In this document: piece by piece, positions 25,318-30,063 of the stretch
Layout: every line of letters begins with the position of its first letter
How positions within the stretch are numbered: position 1 is the stretch's first letter
NCBI GenBank assembly: GCA_022843945.1
Contig: JALHMR010000013.1
Coordinates: forward strand, 62,001 to 126,000
Direction of reading: 5' to 3'
DNA from: Rhodospirillaceae bacterium
GTDB taxonomy: Bacteria > Pseudomonadota > Alphaproteobacteria > CACIAM-22H2
Length of the DNA stretch: 64,000 bases
Made by a program: the position numbers and the translations under genes
Notes under the pieces: model-generated
The model's database searches: none
Seen by the model: only the letters and a program-made list of their open reading frames with translations
Told to the model about the DNA's origin: nothing

Positions 25318-25506
25318 ATGCCGAAGAAACTTAAAGCGCTCCCCAAGTTCCGCACCGAAGCCGCCGAGCGGCGCTTCTGGGAAAAGCACGATTCGATCGG
25401 CTATGTTGACTGGGACAAGGCGGAGCGGGCGCGCTTACCGAACCTGAAGCCCACCCTGCACGACGCGCGCAAAGGCCACAAGGCGCCGCGAATAGTTGTC
25501 CAATAG
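25318..25506 (+). pseudogene. truncated CopG-type antitoxin (BrnA-like)
   Basis: The 62-residue frame starts MPKKLKALPKFRTEAAERRFWEKHDSI and continues YVDWDKAERARLPNLKPT, matching the N-terminal half of the CopG antitoxin family of type II systems. It then departs (LHDARKGHKAPRIVVQ) where the ribbon-helix-helix segment should begin. It has lost DNA binding and has no adjacent toxin. The frame is intact, so a short product could still be made. Confidence 0.65.
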
Positions 25507-25533
25507 GGGACAACCTATTCGCAGGAGGCTCTT

Positions 25534-25827
25534 ATGCTGCCGTCACGTGTGGCGAGATTTCATCGTCCGCCGACTCATCCCGGTGAATTGATCCGCGATC
25601 TTCTGGAAGATCTCGGCTGGGCTTTGCCCCGGGTGGCACGGCGCTTGAAGATGACGCCGGGGGAACTCAACGCCGTGCTGAACGCAGAAACGGCTATGAC
25701 TAACAAGACAGCCCGCGCTTTCGCGCAGCTTCTGGGCGGCGGCCATCAGCTGTTCCTGCGCATGCAGGAGGCCCGCGACTTGTGGCATGCGCAGTATCCG
25801 CGACGAGCCTCGAAAGCCGCTCGCTAA
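25534..25827 (+). CDS. HigA-like XRE-family antitoxin, solitary
   Basis: A 97-residue protein with the HigA/VapI pattern: HPGELIRDLLEDLGWALPRVARRLKMTPGELNAVLN is the helix-turn-helix and the end LFLRMQEARDLWHAQ is the family's conserved C-terminal helix. HigA represses its own operon and neutralises the HigB mRNA interferase. The higB gene, normally just upstream, is absent; the preceding frame is the CopG remnant. It overlaps the end of the convergent thermonuclease gene by 4 bases. Confidence 0.82.
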   Translation: MLPSRVARFHRPPTHPGELIRDLLEDLGWALPRVARRLKMTPGELNAVLNAETAMTNKTARAFAQLLGGGHQLFLRMQEARDLWHAQYPRRASKAAR

Positions 25828-26318
25828 CACCACCCACGGCGCTGCCCGCCGCTATAAGGCCGCGCCAGTCCTTCACGCAACAACGTCGATCCGATATCGA
25901 AACCGCCGACCCTGATATCGGCGAGGATGCGGCCGTAGCGATCGTGCTCGCCTGACGGATAAAGGGACCGCGCACCGCTATTCAGCAGTTCCTGAGTCCG
26001 CCTCTTCGCGCGCAGGGCCAGCTCATGTTCACGCTCGCAACGACTACTCAGTTCCGGCGTATCGATGCCGAGCAGCCGGATGCGGCCGCGGCCGGGCACA
26101 TCCACCGTATCCCCGTCGATGGCCACCCAGCGCACACCGGGAATCCACTGCGCGAAGTCGCTCTCCGCCGCGCGGAACAGGATGTCGGTTCCCAGACCGT
26201 GGGCGACATTGAGCACCGGCCAACGCTGCGCCAGCTCGCCATAACTGAGCCACAAGGCCACCGCCATGAGCAGAGAGATCGGAGCTAGCGGGACGCCACG
26301 CGCAGGCTTCCGATGCAT
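25824..26318 (-). CDS. membrane-anchored thermonuclease (SNase-like) protein
   Basis: A 164-residue protein with an N-terminal hydrophobic helix (APISLLMAVALWLSYG) and a staphylococcal-nuclease-like domain. VAIDGDTVDV is the calcium-binding strand, RIRLLGIDTPEL holds a catalytic Arg and Glu/Asp, and DRYGRILADI holds the second Arg. It would cut DNA or RNA outside the cytoplasmic membrane. The Asp/Arg/Glu pattern is complete. Its place between an antitoxin remnant and a restriction system fits an accessory island. Confidence 0.82.
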   Translation of the reverse strand: MHRKPARGVPLAPISLLMAVALWLSYGELAQRWPVLNVAHGLGTDILFRAAESDFAQWIPGVRWVAIDGDTVDVPGRGRIRLLGIDTPELSSRCEREHELALRAKRRTQELLNSGARSLYPSGEHDRYGRILADIRVGGFDIGSTLLREGLARPYSGGQRRGWC

Positions 26319-26414
26319 AAGCTGCCTCCTCGCCGGTTCGCAACCCGGCGAGGATGGCAGCAGAGATCATTTCAGAATGTGCGGGGACGCACGTTAGCTA
26401 GCCCGCAGGACCGC

Positions 26415-26867
26415 CTAAAGCTTGGGAGGAAAGCTCGCGTTCCACGCACTAATCCGGTCGGTCCCAGGTCGCCCGACCCCGGGAACTTTGCTGCCAAATC
26501 CGCTCTCATTCCATTCCGGCTTGTAGTGGACCATCAGCGCAAACTCCGCGGCGAATACCCACCACTCGCTTTCGAAAGTGAGATAGCGGCATTTCATATC
26601 CGCAATTGAGATGTTCTGGCGACCACTGATTTTGCCCACATGCTCGTTCAAGCGCGTCCGCAAGGTCCGAGTGCTTTTTGTCATGCCCTTGGACGCCTTG
26701 CCGATGTAGACCAACTTCCCTTTGAAGTAGAGGGCGTAGATCCCACTTTCCTGAGGGCCCACACTCTTGTCCAACGGCAAGAGAGGGCTCGCCTCCAATT
26801 TCTGAACGACCTGCTCACGAATCCCGCGGTCCAGGTCAAAATCGAAATGATGTTCGTTGGCAGCCAC
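26415..26867 (-). CDS. Eco29kI-family GIY-YIG restriction endonuclease
   Basis: A 150-residue GIY-YIG nuclease. GIYALYFKG and VYIGKA give the two core tyrosines, TLRTRLNEH gives the catalytic Arg and His, and AEFALMVHYKPEWNESGFG gives the metal-binding Glu and the conserved WN/GFG segment. The tail KVPGVGRPG and SAWN matches Eco29kI-like type II enzymes (Eco29kI cuts CCGCGG). The start is GTG at 26867 with GGGGGAG two bases upstream. It lies 82 bases after the C5-methyltransferase on the same strand, completing a restriction-modification pair. It is shorter than Eco29kI (about 214 residues), mostly in the N-terminal and C-terminal parts. Site specificity is not known. Confidence 0.85.
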   Translation of the reverse strand: MAANEHHFDFDLDRGIREQVVQKLEASPLLPLDKSVGPQESGIYALYFKGKLVYIGKASKGMTKSTRTLRTRLNEHVGKISGRQNISIADMKCRYLTFESEWWVFAAEFALMVHYKPEWNESGFGSKVPGVGRPGTDRISAWNASFPPKL

Positions 26868-26949
26868 GGCTCCCCCTCACGCCGCCAATATGGCATGCCA
26901 TGCTATTGGCTACCAAATGGCCAGGGTCGCGCGGCGGGATTGTAGTGAG

Positions 26950-28197
26950 TTAGGCCGCCCGGCGAGGCCCCACGGAAGCACGCCTACTACCCTGAATTGC
27001 ATCCGCCAGGGTAGTGGCGATCGCGCGAGCCATGGGCACAGGCACGGCGTTCCCTAGCTGCCGCATCGTCTCGGTCCATGAACCAGGAAACACAAAATTA
27101 TCCGGGAAGCCCTGAAGGCGCGCGGATTCACGGACCGTGAAATACCTGACACCGCCATCGGGCAGCACGACCATATTCTCGCCGCCCGGCACTCCATGAT
27201 CCCCAGCCTTAAGGGCCTTCGCCGGCTCATCCATGGGACTACCGGTATGTCCCGCGTAGGAGCGCGCACCAGGTTGGAATCTATGGTTCGCTATCTTATG
27301 CGCTTCCGAGCTTCGTGGATCTGGAAGGCTACCGATTGCGTCCCGCACTGTTACCCAAGGATCGGCGGCCGGCGCGATGAAAGAGCGATCCATCAATTCA
27401 GCCAGGCGGCGCGCGGACGCATCAGGGAGCGGGCGTAGAGCTGGCGGGACACGGTGACGACGCCAATAGTCGCGCGTCACAAACTGATTCCAAACGAGCG
27501 CCTCATACGAATGACTCTCTGCAGGAAACTCCCAATTCGTCGCCACATCCGAACGAATGCCAATCACTATGACTCGATGGCGTTTTTGAGCCGCGCCGTA
27601 GTTAGCAGCGTTAATCTTATACACTTGCACTTTATAAAATGGACCGTCGCCGTCTTCAGCTTGCAATTGCGACAATCGGCTCAGATGGCTCTGCCAATCC
27701 TCGCTCGGTCGAGCCGCCATGTTCGGGCGGCTCAAACGCTCTACGATATATTTCAGGTAGCTAGAGAACGCCTCGCGCGCCAAGCCACGCACGTTTTCAA
27801 ACATGAACGCTCGCGGCTGTAATTCACGAACCGCGCGAATAGCTTGAGGCCACATATCGCGCGTGTCGGTATGCCCACCGTGCTTGCCGCCAATGGAGAA
27901 TGGCTGGCACGGCGGGCCACCGGCGACCAAATCAACCTCGCCATAGCCGTGGAAAGTAATGTCACGCACGTCAGCATGTTTAATCGGCCAACCTCGCGCC
28001 GGACCGCCGGCATCAGAATTAGCCTTGATTGTTTCGTAGGCGTGATCGTCCCACTCAACCATCAACTTGGGCTCAAACCCGGCCTGCTGCAGCCCCAGCG
28101 CGAGGCCGCCCGCCCCCGTGAACAGCTCTATCGACTTCAATTGTCCAGAAAGGCTTGCATCCGCGTCATAAGGCGCTTGGTGTTCTTGATCTGACAT
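26950..28197 (-). CDS. DNA (cytosine-5) methyltransferase
   Basis: A 415-residue C5-MTase with ordered motifs: I (ELFTGAGGLALGL), IV with the catalytic Cys (GGPPCQPFS), VI (ENVRG), VIII (QKRHRVIVIG), a target-recognition region (about 240-340), IX (RLQGFPDNFVF) and X (QLGNAVPVPMARAIA). It methylates the site cut by the adjacent endonuclease. The start I chose (ATG 28197, MSDQEHQAPY) lies inside the vsr gene, giving a 61-base overlap; a longer frame to 28650 would run over vsr entirely and lacks MTase features. The gene is visibly less GC-rich than the flanks, in line with horizontal acquisition. Confidence 0.92.
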   Translation of the reverse strand: MSDQEHQAPYDADASLSGQLKSIELFTGAGGLALGLQQAGFEPKLMVEWDDHAYETIKANSDAGGPARGWPIKHADVRDITFHGYGEVDLVAGGPPCQPFSIGGKHGGHTDTRDMWPQAIRAVRELQPRAFMFENVRGLAREAFSSYLKYIVERLSRPNMAARPSEDWQSHLSRLSQLQAEDGDGPFYKVQVYKINAANYGAAQKRHRVIVIGIRSDVATNWEFPAESHSYEALVWNQFVTRDYWRRHRVPPALRPLPDASARRLAELMDRSFIAPAADPWVTVRDAIGSLPDPRSSEAHKIANHRFQPGARSYAGHTGSPMDEPAKALKAGDHGVPGGENMVVLPDGGVRYFTVRESARLQGFPDNFVFPGSWTETMRQLGNAVPVPMARAIATTLADAIQGSRRASVGPRRAA

Positions 28198-28550
28198 TCC
28201 CAAACGACCATCACGCGCCATCCAAGCTTGCGAAGCTGATCGCGATTTCGTCGATCTCGGCGCCGATTGCTCTCCAACTTTGGTAGCCAAAACTCCAGAC
28301 GTGACTTCGGCAATCTGGCCAACGCGCAACTCGCGGCCGAATGTCGATGCCAAAAGCAGCCGTGGACGAACAAGACCTTCCGCTGACTCGCGAATACTAA
28401 ATCGGGCTTCCCCGGTAATTTCTGGCCGTGCAATCGGAAGCGAACTCCGAGCCGATGGACCAGCCTTCGCACCACGACTTCCGCCTTGGTGTTTTTCGAT
28501 CGCACCAGCGCCATGCGCTTGCTTCGCTCGCTGGCGCTGAGCGTGTCCAT
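28137..28550 (-). CDS. vsr: very short patch repair endonuclease
   Basis: A 137-residue Vsr protein. MRLV-like RMALVRSKNTKAE, LPGKPDLVF (metal-binding Asp) and VHGCFWHRH (zinc and catalytic residues) are the family's defining segments, followed by the NRDQLRKLGWRVMVVWEC core. Vsr nicks T:G mismatches that arise when 5-methylcytosine deaminates in a methyltransferase site, so its overlap with the C5-MTase gene is functionally sensible. It follows the ribbon-helix-helix gene after 6 bases. Confidence 0.93.
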   Translation of the reverse strand: MDTLSASERSKRMALVRSKNTKAEVVVRRLVHRLGVRFRLHGQKLPGKPDLVFASQRKVLFVHGCFWHRHSAASCALARLPKSRLEFWLPKLESNRRRDRRNRDQLRKLGWRVMVVWECQIKNTKRLMTRMQAFLDN

Positions 28551-28556
28551 TCTTCT

Positions 28557-28766
28557 TCACCGGCTTTTTGGTCCCAGTGACAAGTCCAGGGCGAGCTGCC
28601 CCTTGTCCATGTCGTCGAGAAACCGTTTTACGGCGTGTCGGATGAGCCATGCGACGCTCCGTTCATTCTCCCGCGCGATCGTCTCAAGGCGTTTCAGCTC
28701 GTCGGATGGCAGCCCGACACTGATTCGCGGCACGCTTGAACTGGAACTAGGGCGTTTCTTCGGCAT
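28557..28766 (-). CDS. ribbon-helix-helix protein leading the restriction operon
   Basis: A 69-residue protein: MPKKRPSSSSSV, then the RHH pattern PRISVGLPSDELKRLETIARENERSVAWLIRHAVKRFLDD (strand, then two helices) and a hydrophobic tail. CopG/Arc-like proteins bind DNA as dimers through the strand. It is the first gene of a four-gene leftward operon (this gene, vsr, MTase, REase), and a perfect palindrome lies 18 bases upstream. I infer that it controls the operon in the way C-proteins do in other restriction systems. An in-frame GTG at 28781 is an alternative start. Confidence 0.7.
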   Translation of the reverse strand: MPKKRPSSSSSVPRISVGLPSDELKRLETIARENERSVAWLIRHAVKRFLDDMDKGQLALDLSLGPKSR

Positions 28767-28783
28767 GCGGACCCGCTGCACGA

Positions 28784-28800
28784 TGCATCACAATGATGCA
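28784..28800. promoter_or_regulatory. palindromic candidate operator of the restriction operon
   Basis: TGCATCA-CAA-TGATGCA: 7-base perfect arms and a 3-base spacer, just upstream of the ribbon-helix-helix gene. Another GATGCA-like half overlaps it on the left (GCTGCACGATGCATCA). The position suits autoregulation by that protein. Confidence 0.5.
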
Positions 28801-28836
28801 GCATGCGGCACGGCGGTTCAACATGCGCCAACGAAT

Positions 28837-28851
28837 GTTCCCTATTCGTTC
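28837..28851. promoter_or_regulatory. candidate LexA (SOS) box
   Basis: GTTCCCTATTCGTTC fits GTTC-N7-GTTC exactly, the known LexA box of Alphaproteobacteria. It sits in the divergent region, 71 bases before the restriction operon's first ATG and 109 bases before the small ORF that leads into the HNH gene. DNA damage could therefore induce either transcript. Only one exact match was noticed, and chance occurrence is possible. Confidence 0.5.
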
Positions 28852-28960
28852 TACAAATAAGCACGGGATAAGTCAACCCCGCCGAAGGCCCACGTATGCC
28901 CACACGTCAGCGGCGCGCAGTACACTGGGCGGACTCAGAGCGGCCGCTTTAGGGCGAAGC

Positions 28961-29161
28961 ATGACGTTAGATGAATATAGGGTTCAGGTTTCTTCGCTTC
29001 TGGCGCGAGATTGGCACCTCACGTGGGCCGACGCTTGCGGAGACGATCAGCCGCTCGTTTCCGCTCAAGAGGCTGGCTTTAGTCCCGAGCAGTTTGTCGA
29101 ATGGTTTGCTGAAAAATACGACCTCATTCGATTCGATGACGCATGGCCAAGGCTGTCCTGA
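28961..29161 (+). CDS. small acidic hypothetical protein upstream of HNH gene
   Basis: A 66-residue frame beginning MTLDEYRVQVSSLLARDW and ending FDDAWPRLS. It is acidic and helical in character, with no family I recognise. The stop lies 19 bases inside the HNH gene, so the two are overlapped and probably cotranslated. The sequence GGGCGAAGC before the ATG gives a weak ribosome site. It may be an inhibitor, specificity subunit or accessory factor of the HNH nuclease; this is inference from position only. Confidence 0.5.
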   Translation: MTLDEYRVQVSSLLARDWHLTWADACGDDQPLVSAQEAGFSPEQFVEWFAEKYDLIRFDDAWPRLS

Positions 29162-30063
29162 CTACCAAAGTCCGGCCGACATACGACGACCTACCAGAGG
29201 TCCGGTACCACTTTCCTCGTCGTTACCTTGCCCGGATCGAGCAGGCTGTTGGCGACGAAATCATCTACTACGAGCCGCGACGCCAGGATGACGACGACGC
29301 CGGACGCGAGGGTCGGCAGGCTTATTTCGCAACCGCCCGAATTGTCGCGATAGAAGAGGATACAAAGGTCGCGGAGCACTACTACGCGTGGATCGCCGAC
29401 TACATCGACTTCGATCAGGCGGTACCTTTTCGCGAGGGCACCACTTATTACGAGAGTGCCCTTCGGAAGGAAGACGGGTCGACGAACAAGGGGCGGTTCG
29501 GCAGCGCCGTTCGCATTGTTCCGGCCGAAGAGTTCGAGACAATTCGAAGCGTGGGCTTCCAACAGACGGTTTCGTTAGAGCGAGCGCCCAATCTGAGTAT
29601 GCCGGGCTTGGCCGAGGAACCGGCCGAGTACGAGCGCCCCATCAAAGAACAGATCGTAAGGCGCCCGTTTCGAGATCGCGCCTTCGCTCGACAAGTTTGC
29701 GAGGCCTACAATTCTCGTTGTGCCCTCACCGGCATCCGCTTGGTCAATGGCGGCGGCCGAACCGAGGTCGAAGCCGCACATATCAAGCCCGTTGGAGATG
29801 GACACAAGGGACCGGACTCTGTTCGGAACGGCATCGCCCTATGCCAAACCGTCCATTGGATGTTCGATAGAGGCGTCGTCTCTTTGACCGACGACTATTC
29901 TCTGCTGGTCGACAGAACGTACGTCACTAGCGACGTTCAGCGTCTGTTCACGCCAGAACTAAAGGCCGCCGTACCGTTGAGCGATGTCCTGCGTCCGCAT
30001 CCGCAGTTTCTCAAGTATCACCGCGACGTCGTTTGCGCAGGCCGCAAACTCGTGCGTCCTTAA
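29143..30063 (+). CDS. HNH endonuclease-domain protein
   Basis: A 306-residue protein. The first about 170 residues are an unassigned domain (YHFPRRYLARIEQAVGDEIIYYEPRR, later AEHYYAWIADYIDFD), probably for target recognition. The C-terminal HNH_2-type nuclease (about 190-250) has CALTGIRL, then VEAAHIKPVGDGHKGPDSV, NGIALC and HWMFDRGVVSL, the usual His/Asn/His metal site and Cys knuckles. Proteins of this layout occur in defence islands as stand-alone restriction-like nucleases. It diverges from the restriction operon and shares its lower GC content. Confidence 0.82.
   Translation: MAKAVLTTKVRPTYDDLPEVRYHFPRRYLARIEQAVGDEIIYYEPRRQDDDDAGREGRQAYFATARIVAIEEDTKVAEHYYAWIADYIDFDQAVPFREGTTYYESALRKEDGSTNKGRFGSAVRIVPAEEFETIRSVGFQQTVSLERAPNLSMPGLAEEPAEYERPIKEQIVRRPFRDRAFARQVCEAYNSRCALTGIRLVNGGGRTEVEAAHIKPVGDGHKGPDSVRNGIALCQTVHWMFDRGVVSLTDDYSLLVDRTYVTSDVQRLFTPELKAAVPLSDVLRPHPQFLKYHRDVVCAGRKLVRP

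Follow-up and report, generated by a model that had tools for sequence, protein, structure and literature searches.

A ribbon-helix-helix protein as putative autorepressor of a Type II restriction-modification operon with a LexA-type box at its predicted promoter

Gene content and layout of the locus

Four minus-strand genes follow one another at positions 26415-28851 of the window, which here means the whole 64,000-nucleotide stretch of Rhodospirillaceae DNA that was analysed. Family matches bear out the gene set and order proposed in an earlier interpretation made from the letters alone (the sequence-only reading): a ribbon-helix-helix (RHH) protein, vsr, a C5-cytosine methyltransferase (MTase) and a GIY-YIG restriction endonuclease (REase) of the Eco29kI type. 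The RHH gene (28557-28766, minus strand; RHH_1, 3.7e-8) encodes a CopG-type protein of 69 amino acids from ATG 28766, with GTG 28781 as a possible start that would give 74 codons. It is followed by the gene for Vsr, a T:G mismatch endonuclease of 137 amino acids (28137-28550, minus strand), which matches the Vsr model at 1.2e-26, TIGR00632 at 139.9 bits (cut-off 97.85) and structure 1cw0 at 3.2e-31. The MTase gene (26950-28140, minus strand; DNA_methylase, 9.3e-57) comes next, and the last gene (26415-26867, minus strand) encodes, from a GTG start, a short REase of 150 amino acids matching RE_Eco29kI at 9.9e-17 and 61.7 bits (cut-off 30.8).

All four genes look like one operon, less uniformly packed than had been described. 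The 6-base gap between the RHH gene and vsr stands, but the MTase and REase genes are separated by 82 bases, and the supposed 61-base overlap of vsr with an MTase starting at ATG 28197 was set aside. As most relatives of the MTase align from about residue 20 of the ATG 28197 reading, and TTG 28140 overlaps the vsr stop codon (TTGA), a start at TTG 28140 with a 4-base overlap is more likely. An inverted-repeat search found a perfect 12-base palindrome, ATGGCATGCCAT, at 26890-26901 in the 82-base gap, through which the REase might be controlled separately.

The source genome (5.4 Mb) contains LexA and RecA. A search for the C5-MTase at E <= 1e-60 covered 41 genomes in all, with G015 as the sole other match; none of the other 22 genomes in that set from its genus or family has the MTase, so the operon looks acquired. 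A separate scan of genome contigs with the MTase returned only distant MTases, which were left out of the analysis. On the opposite strand beside the operon lies an HNH_2 nuclease gene (29143-30063, plus strand) that scores 77.5 bits against the NCBIfam model PT-DNA_restrict, below its cut-off of 180. On the other side, at 25318-25827 (plus strand), a CopG-type antitoxin family protein (PF12441) is followed by a small HTH-like protein, possibly as part of a toxin-antitoxin locus.

Comparison with Eco29kI and related loci

The operon resembles the Eco29kI system of pECO29 in having a GIY-YIG REase with conserved catalytic columns and a C5-MTase of the same subfamily. In pECO29, however, the REase precedes the MTase and there is neither vsr nor an RHH gene, whereas in the source operon the MTase comes before the REase, vsr and the RHH gene come first, and the REase is shorter. 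The smaller size noted by the sequence-only reading is confirmed (150 versus 214 amino acids for the pECO29 REase); the enzyme is without the insert found between the GIY and YIG motifs of the pECO29 enzyme, and its residues Y44, Y54, R72, H76, E108 and N120 are invariant among eight relatives. The C5-MTase is 45.5% identical to M.Eco29kI overall, with only 35% identity in the recognition region (residues 231-290). Eco29kI recognizes CCGCGG.

Most Eco29kI-type relatives are without an RHH gene. Among 47 related MTase loci, some of which reach only 1.0-1.5 kb upstream, an RHH gene of the family described below was present in five (the source locus, L069, L070, L195 and L196) and absent from 42. 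Twelve MTase regions were our own choice from 528 records; L109, which has no MTase, was dropped. Absence of RHH genes beside homologous systems had been named beforehand as an observation that would count against an RHH controller; such absence is indeed the rule among these relatives, but the family is common beside other types of restriction-modification (RM) system.

An RHH family in front of modification and restriction genes

That an RHH protein rather than a helix-turn-helix (HTH) C-protein leads the operon, as had been proposed, is borne out by the RHH_1 match (33.5 bits, cut-off 20.5); only RHH_1 and RHH_5 match, and no HTH model does. Taken alone, the protein is a generic CopG-type RHH protein. 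Its motif reads SVAW, which places it in a family with the motif SxAW, usually with a QxxLxL-like tail. SxAW-type RHH genes leading modification operons are a grouping defined in the present analysis, and its three features are all found at 26415-28851: the SVAW motif, vsr, MTase and REase genes next in line, and TGCATCA-N3-TGATGCA upstream. In nearly all loci examined, a gene of this family immediately precedes modification or restriction genes, among them genes for C5- and N6-methyltransferases, HsdM, BglII- and Mrr-type nucleases and DndC.

Searching 385 genomes of the class with the RHH protein returned 17 other loci, which when sorted by eye comprised seven with a RelE-like neighbour, nine with SxAW or SxSW and one (L115) with neither. 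In seven of these nine a modification or defence gene comes next, at -3 to about +50 bases: HsdM (L116), a C5-MTase (L119, L123), SIR2 (L126), a cysteine desulfurase matching SspA/DndA models (L125) and AAA proteins with a weak match to the Ppl model (L117, L124). The other two (L118, L121) are without an assigned neighbour. Across 154 genomes of the phylum, a SxAW profile gave four strong matches besides the source locus, all preceding a C5-MTase; two of the four (L201, L202) were absent from the profile, and their MTases were judged from sequence. Weaker matches were mostly antitoxin-like.

The RHH protein itself matched nothing when used as a query against plasmids, so relatives' RHH sequences were used for the plasmid searches. 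The 16 plasmid loci examined were our selection from three hit lists (20, 19 and 48 records, many of them duplicates). In 15 of them the RHH gene stands directly before modification or restriction genes: a C5-MTase in six, an N6/Eco57I-type enzyme in seven (one with a BsuBI/PstI-family REase), a BglII-type REase with MT-A70 in one and dndC in one. The sixteenth has an RHH protein with a different motif and a RelE toxin next. In L233 and L234 the RHH gene was unannotated in the record and was recovered as an open frame, and RHH and MTase genes at the plasmid loci often overlap by 4 bases. Five loci fetched later (two plasmids and three viral contigs) all have an RHH gene leading to an MTase or an Mrr-type REase.

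Inverted heptads as a putative operator

Upstream of the RHH gene, at 28784-28800, the inverted heptads TGCATCA-N3-TGATGCA form the sequence TGCATCACAATGATGCA. It had been called a perfect 17-base palindrome; the 7-base arms are perfect, but the 3-base spacer is not symmetric, and with mismatches the repeat extends to 13/16. By itself TGCATCACAATGATGCA is not significant (shuffle p 0.075), and 50 inverted pairs with arms of at least 7 and spacers of at most 3 bases occur across the 64 kb. Its significance comes instead from comparing the upstream regions of the RHH family. Aligned upstream regions of similar RHH genes showed the repeats TGGTGCA/TGCACCA, and pairs of TGCAYCA/TGRTGCA heptads whose starts are 10 bases apart, one mismatch being allowed per heptad, were then counted in the 200 bases upstream of each gene. 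Such a pair is present in 20 of 27 SxAW loci against 0.16 expected from block shuffles, with a sharp peak at spacing 10, a count in which the motif was derived from the same loci and from which L223 was omitted because it shares its RHH with L222. It is missing from the remaining 7 of the 27 and occurs at none of 17 other RHH genes.

As the motif came from the counted loci, the five loci fetched later are the fairer test: three have the pair, exact in L241, although one of the three, L239, is a near relative of L231; L240 and L243 are without it. A set of 44 control MTase loci yielded one distant, weak pair in 39,600 bases; the set was meant to lack RHH genes and included the RHH-bearing L195 and L196, neither of which scored. 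Genome-wide, the exact inverted pair occurs once in 5.4 Mb, at 28784-28800, with four other places matching at one mismatch. A 10-base period alone was considered as a special feature and rejected; a sequence-blind repeat test peaks at 10 in SxAW loci (11/29) but also at other RHH genes (5/17).

The palindrome, which the sequence-only reading had tied to the RHH protein, thus fits the pattern of an RHH operator common to the family, as judged from the heptad counts and its uniqueness in the genome, and is best read as the putative operator of this RHH protein.

A different repeat was seen in L195 and L196, where tandem GCCGCGG repeats 10 bases apart lie about 20-40 bases before the RHH start of an RHH-MTase-REase operon. 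L195 has three copies, L196 has two and a degenerate third, and TGRTGCA heptads are absent from both. These repeats contain CCGCGG and are a possible operator doubling as a restriction site; if the enzymes there share CCGCGG, the regulator site would be the enzyme site, and methylation at this presumed enzyme site could gate the RHH regulator directly.

A predicted promoter and a LexA-type box

A promoter can be read on the minus strand at 28848-28876, with TTGACT (28876-28871) and TAGAAC (28853-28848) separated by 17 bases. As a scan of 26300-29100 called no sigma-70-like site, TAGAAC failing its rule for the -10 element, the promoter is kept as a reading only. A pattern search located a LexA-type box, GAACGAATAGGGAAC (GAACN7GAAC; 28837-28851, minus strand), overlapping the -10 element of this predicted promoter; the box is an addition to the earlier account of the locus. 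The GAACN7GAAC core alone proves little, as the genome holds 72 matches to it and 59 to the reversed control pattern. The genome's own lexA, however, has a LexA-type box 59 bases upstream, and recA has GAACAAAACGGGTAC upstream. A GAACN7GAAC box at the predicted promoter, in a genome whose lexA carries the same box, is the sequence pattern of a LexA-regulon gene. A longer form, GAACNAANNNNGAACATT, has exact matches only at GAACGAATAGGGAAC and two other sites genome-wide, a comparison that is circular by design, as the pattern was written after seeing those three sites. When the 72 sites were ranked by a spacer matrix built from 14 boxes of other RM loci, GAACGAATAGGGAAC came fifth and lexA's own box twelfth.

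Related loci carry such boxes in alphaproteobacteria. An exact box lies within -150 to +60 of the MTase match in 12 of 32 alphaproteobacterial MTase loci, a set that includes the source locus, against about 0.1 expected at the source genome's own rate and none in 15 other loci. Seven of the 12 boxes fall at the 3' end of vsr, a stretch in which the Vsr protein sequence favours boxes; recoding with synonymous codons gives an expectation of 0.98 for 16 genes. Five lie outside vsr (L100, L111, L191-L193). Adding the source locus (box at -654, before the RHH gene), L195 and L196 brings the count to 15 of 32; the other 17 have none upstream of either operon or MTase. In L195 and L196 the box stands upstream of a SxAW-family RHH gene that overlaps the same kind of MTase gene, the architecture of the source locus with vsr at the other end. 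A box before the RHH gene also occurs in L119, L123, L220 and L221, and a box lies no more than 200 bp from five of 21 alphaproteobacterial SxAW-RHH genes. Among the 15 non-alphaproteobacterial loci no convincing E. coli-type LexA box was found upstream of the MTase, with two one-mismatch sites in L069 and L070, so SOS control is suggested for alphaproteobacteria only.

Several further arrangements were observed. In six loci of one family (L191-L196) vsr is downstream of the REase gene, not before the MTase gene, and a box precedes the MTase or RHH gene in five. Elsewhere in the source genome (contig C66), a LexA-type box, GAACAAACAAAGAAC (L141:1708-1722), is followed after 32 bases by an Eco57I/N6-type methyltransferase gene (L141:1754-3274), a second modification gene that may be under SOS control. 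On a Mesorhizobium plasmid (L226:1224-3179), an S24 peptidase and a Y-family DNA polymerase come directly before an RHH-N6 methyltransferase pair, which is another link between SOS functions and RHH-modification operons.

Proposed regulation and alternative explanations

The reading towards which we lean is that this is a Type II RM operon with one upstream promoter and a dedicated RHH autorepressor binding the heptads, with LexA as a second brake. We infer that one promoter upstream of the RHH gene would transcribe the whole RHH-vsr-MTase-REase operon, and that RHH dimers would occupy TGRTGCA heptads spaced by one helical turn, in this operon at 28784-28800. As the putative operator spans roughly +41 to +57 when numbered from the predicted start, bound RHH protein would repress the whole operon, probably by halting RNA polymerase early in elongation. 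On entry into a new host, the operon would at first be transcribed unchecked, with RHH, Vsr and MTase made before the REase, which is encoded last; accumulating RHH protein would then bind downstream of the start and the operon would settle at a low level. LexA at the box over the -10 element would be the second brake, released by DNA damage.

The sequence-only reading had given the RHH protein the part of a C-protein that delays the REase. This is unsupported: the operator would lie upstream of the whole operon, no other exact half-site occurs between 26300 and 29100, and nothing except the 82-base gap separates REase from MTase timing. That proposal thus appears partly right, with the right regulator and the right site and an unproven timing role. 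Unlike the C-proteins of described systems, which favour REase expression, the RHH protein in this model would lower the whole operon. An RHH analogue that activates or times the REase selectively would agree with the RHH gene leading the operon, as C genes often do, and with the 82-base gap and its 12-base palindrome. With no exact heptad near the REase gene, a single operon, and the order RHH, REase, MTase in Roseomonas (L227) and Roseivivax (L240), where the REase gene directly follows the RHH gene, we regard such an analogue as quite improbable. Poorer still is the case for a stray antitoxin-type gene beside a chance palindrome. The best NCBIfam match of the RHH protein is a RelB-like antitoxin and the palindrome has p 0.075 when taken alone; yet at 26.7 bits that match falls short of the cut-off (50), the RHH gene is followed by vsr and not by the toxin gene of a RelB/ParD type II toxin-antitoxin pair, and members of the family stand before RM genes in plasmids that are unrelated and have the heptads in common, which leaves this explanation very little room.

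The two layers of the proposed control can also be separated. LexA alone might control the operon, with the RHH protein doing something else, such as guiding or contacting the modification enzyme on DNA. The recurrence of the box in MTase loci without an RHH gene, where the RHH protein would be dispensable, and the frequent 4-base RHH-MTase overlaps speak for this, as does DndE, an RHH protein that an excerpt of PMC10853773 describes as part of a modification machine, with RHH domains thought to scan DNA. It is nevertheless unlikely, as it is the RHH gene itself that the heptads precede, and only one of the 44 control loci has them, the pattern of an autoregulated gene. Conversely, RHH autorepression may be real and the box at the promoter a chance occurrence, the operon lying outside the SOS regulon. 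In favour are the count of 72 genome sites beside 59 for the reversed control and the presence of a nearby box at only five of 21 alphaproteobacterial SxAW-RHH genes; against it stand the position over the predicted -10 element, the recurrence in 12 of 32 related loci and the fifth rank by an independent spacer matrix. We give this possibility a minor but appreciable chance, and retain autorepression by the RHH protein with LexA as second brake as the preferred reading.

Relation to known systems and significance

Parallels to the proposed control exist in described systems. C-protein Type II RM systems such as Kpn2I and Esp1396I (reviewed in PMC3874152) likewise place a small DNA-binding protein first with its own operator upstream, and the Kpn2I C-protein, according to PMC6237814, acts as an elongation roadblock, a precedent for an operator downstream of the transcription start. 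The source operon differs in having an RHH fold rather than HTH and no sign of REase-specific control. RHH proteins are mentioned for toxin-antitoxin operons in PMC3874152, where the autoregulators Omega and PaaR offer an analogous layout, with an RHH repressor first and repeated short promoter sites; the source RHH gene, in contrast, precedes modification and restriction genes, not an antitoxin and a toxin. According to PMC13092281, 4% of predicted defence clusters that are still uncharacterised contain RHH domains, a figure that fits an RHH family beside modification and defence genes. A published precedent for an SOS-controlled Vsr is Caulobacter vsrA, which according to PMC12907096 is induced by DNA damage and has an exact GTTC(N7)GTTC LexA site. 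It is, like the source protein, an alphaproteobacterial Vsr, but its gene is unlinked to its methyltransferase and the box lies within the gene. In the open-access literature on RHH/CopG proteins and restriction-modification, we recognised no description of an RHH controller for an RM system, nor in the open-access literature one of a LexA box on a Type II RM operon, Caulobacter vsrA being the nearest.

We judge to be evenly balanced the broader proposal that a widespread, plasmid-spread RHH family is a general controller of modification and restriction operons (Types I, II, IIG-like and Dnd) through TGRTGCA heptads a helical turn apart, layered with LexA in alphaproteobacteria, where DNA damage would raise RM operons. 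HTH C-proteins, self-regulating methyltransferases and antisense transcripts have so far been the main answers to the old question of how a newly arrived RM system leaves its host alive. If true, an RHH family that leads several RM types and has a recognisable operator would be a further general solution, and one predictable from sequence. Restriction itself can cause DNA damage, and a LexA box on RM operons would tie DNA damage to RM output.
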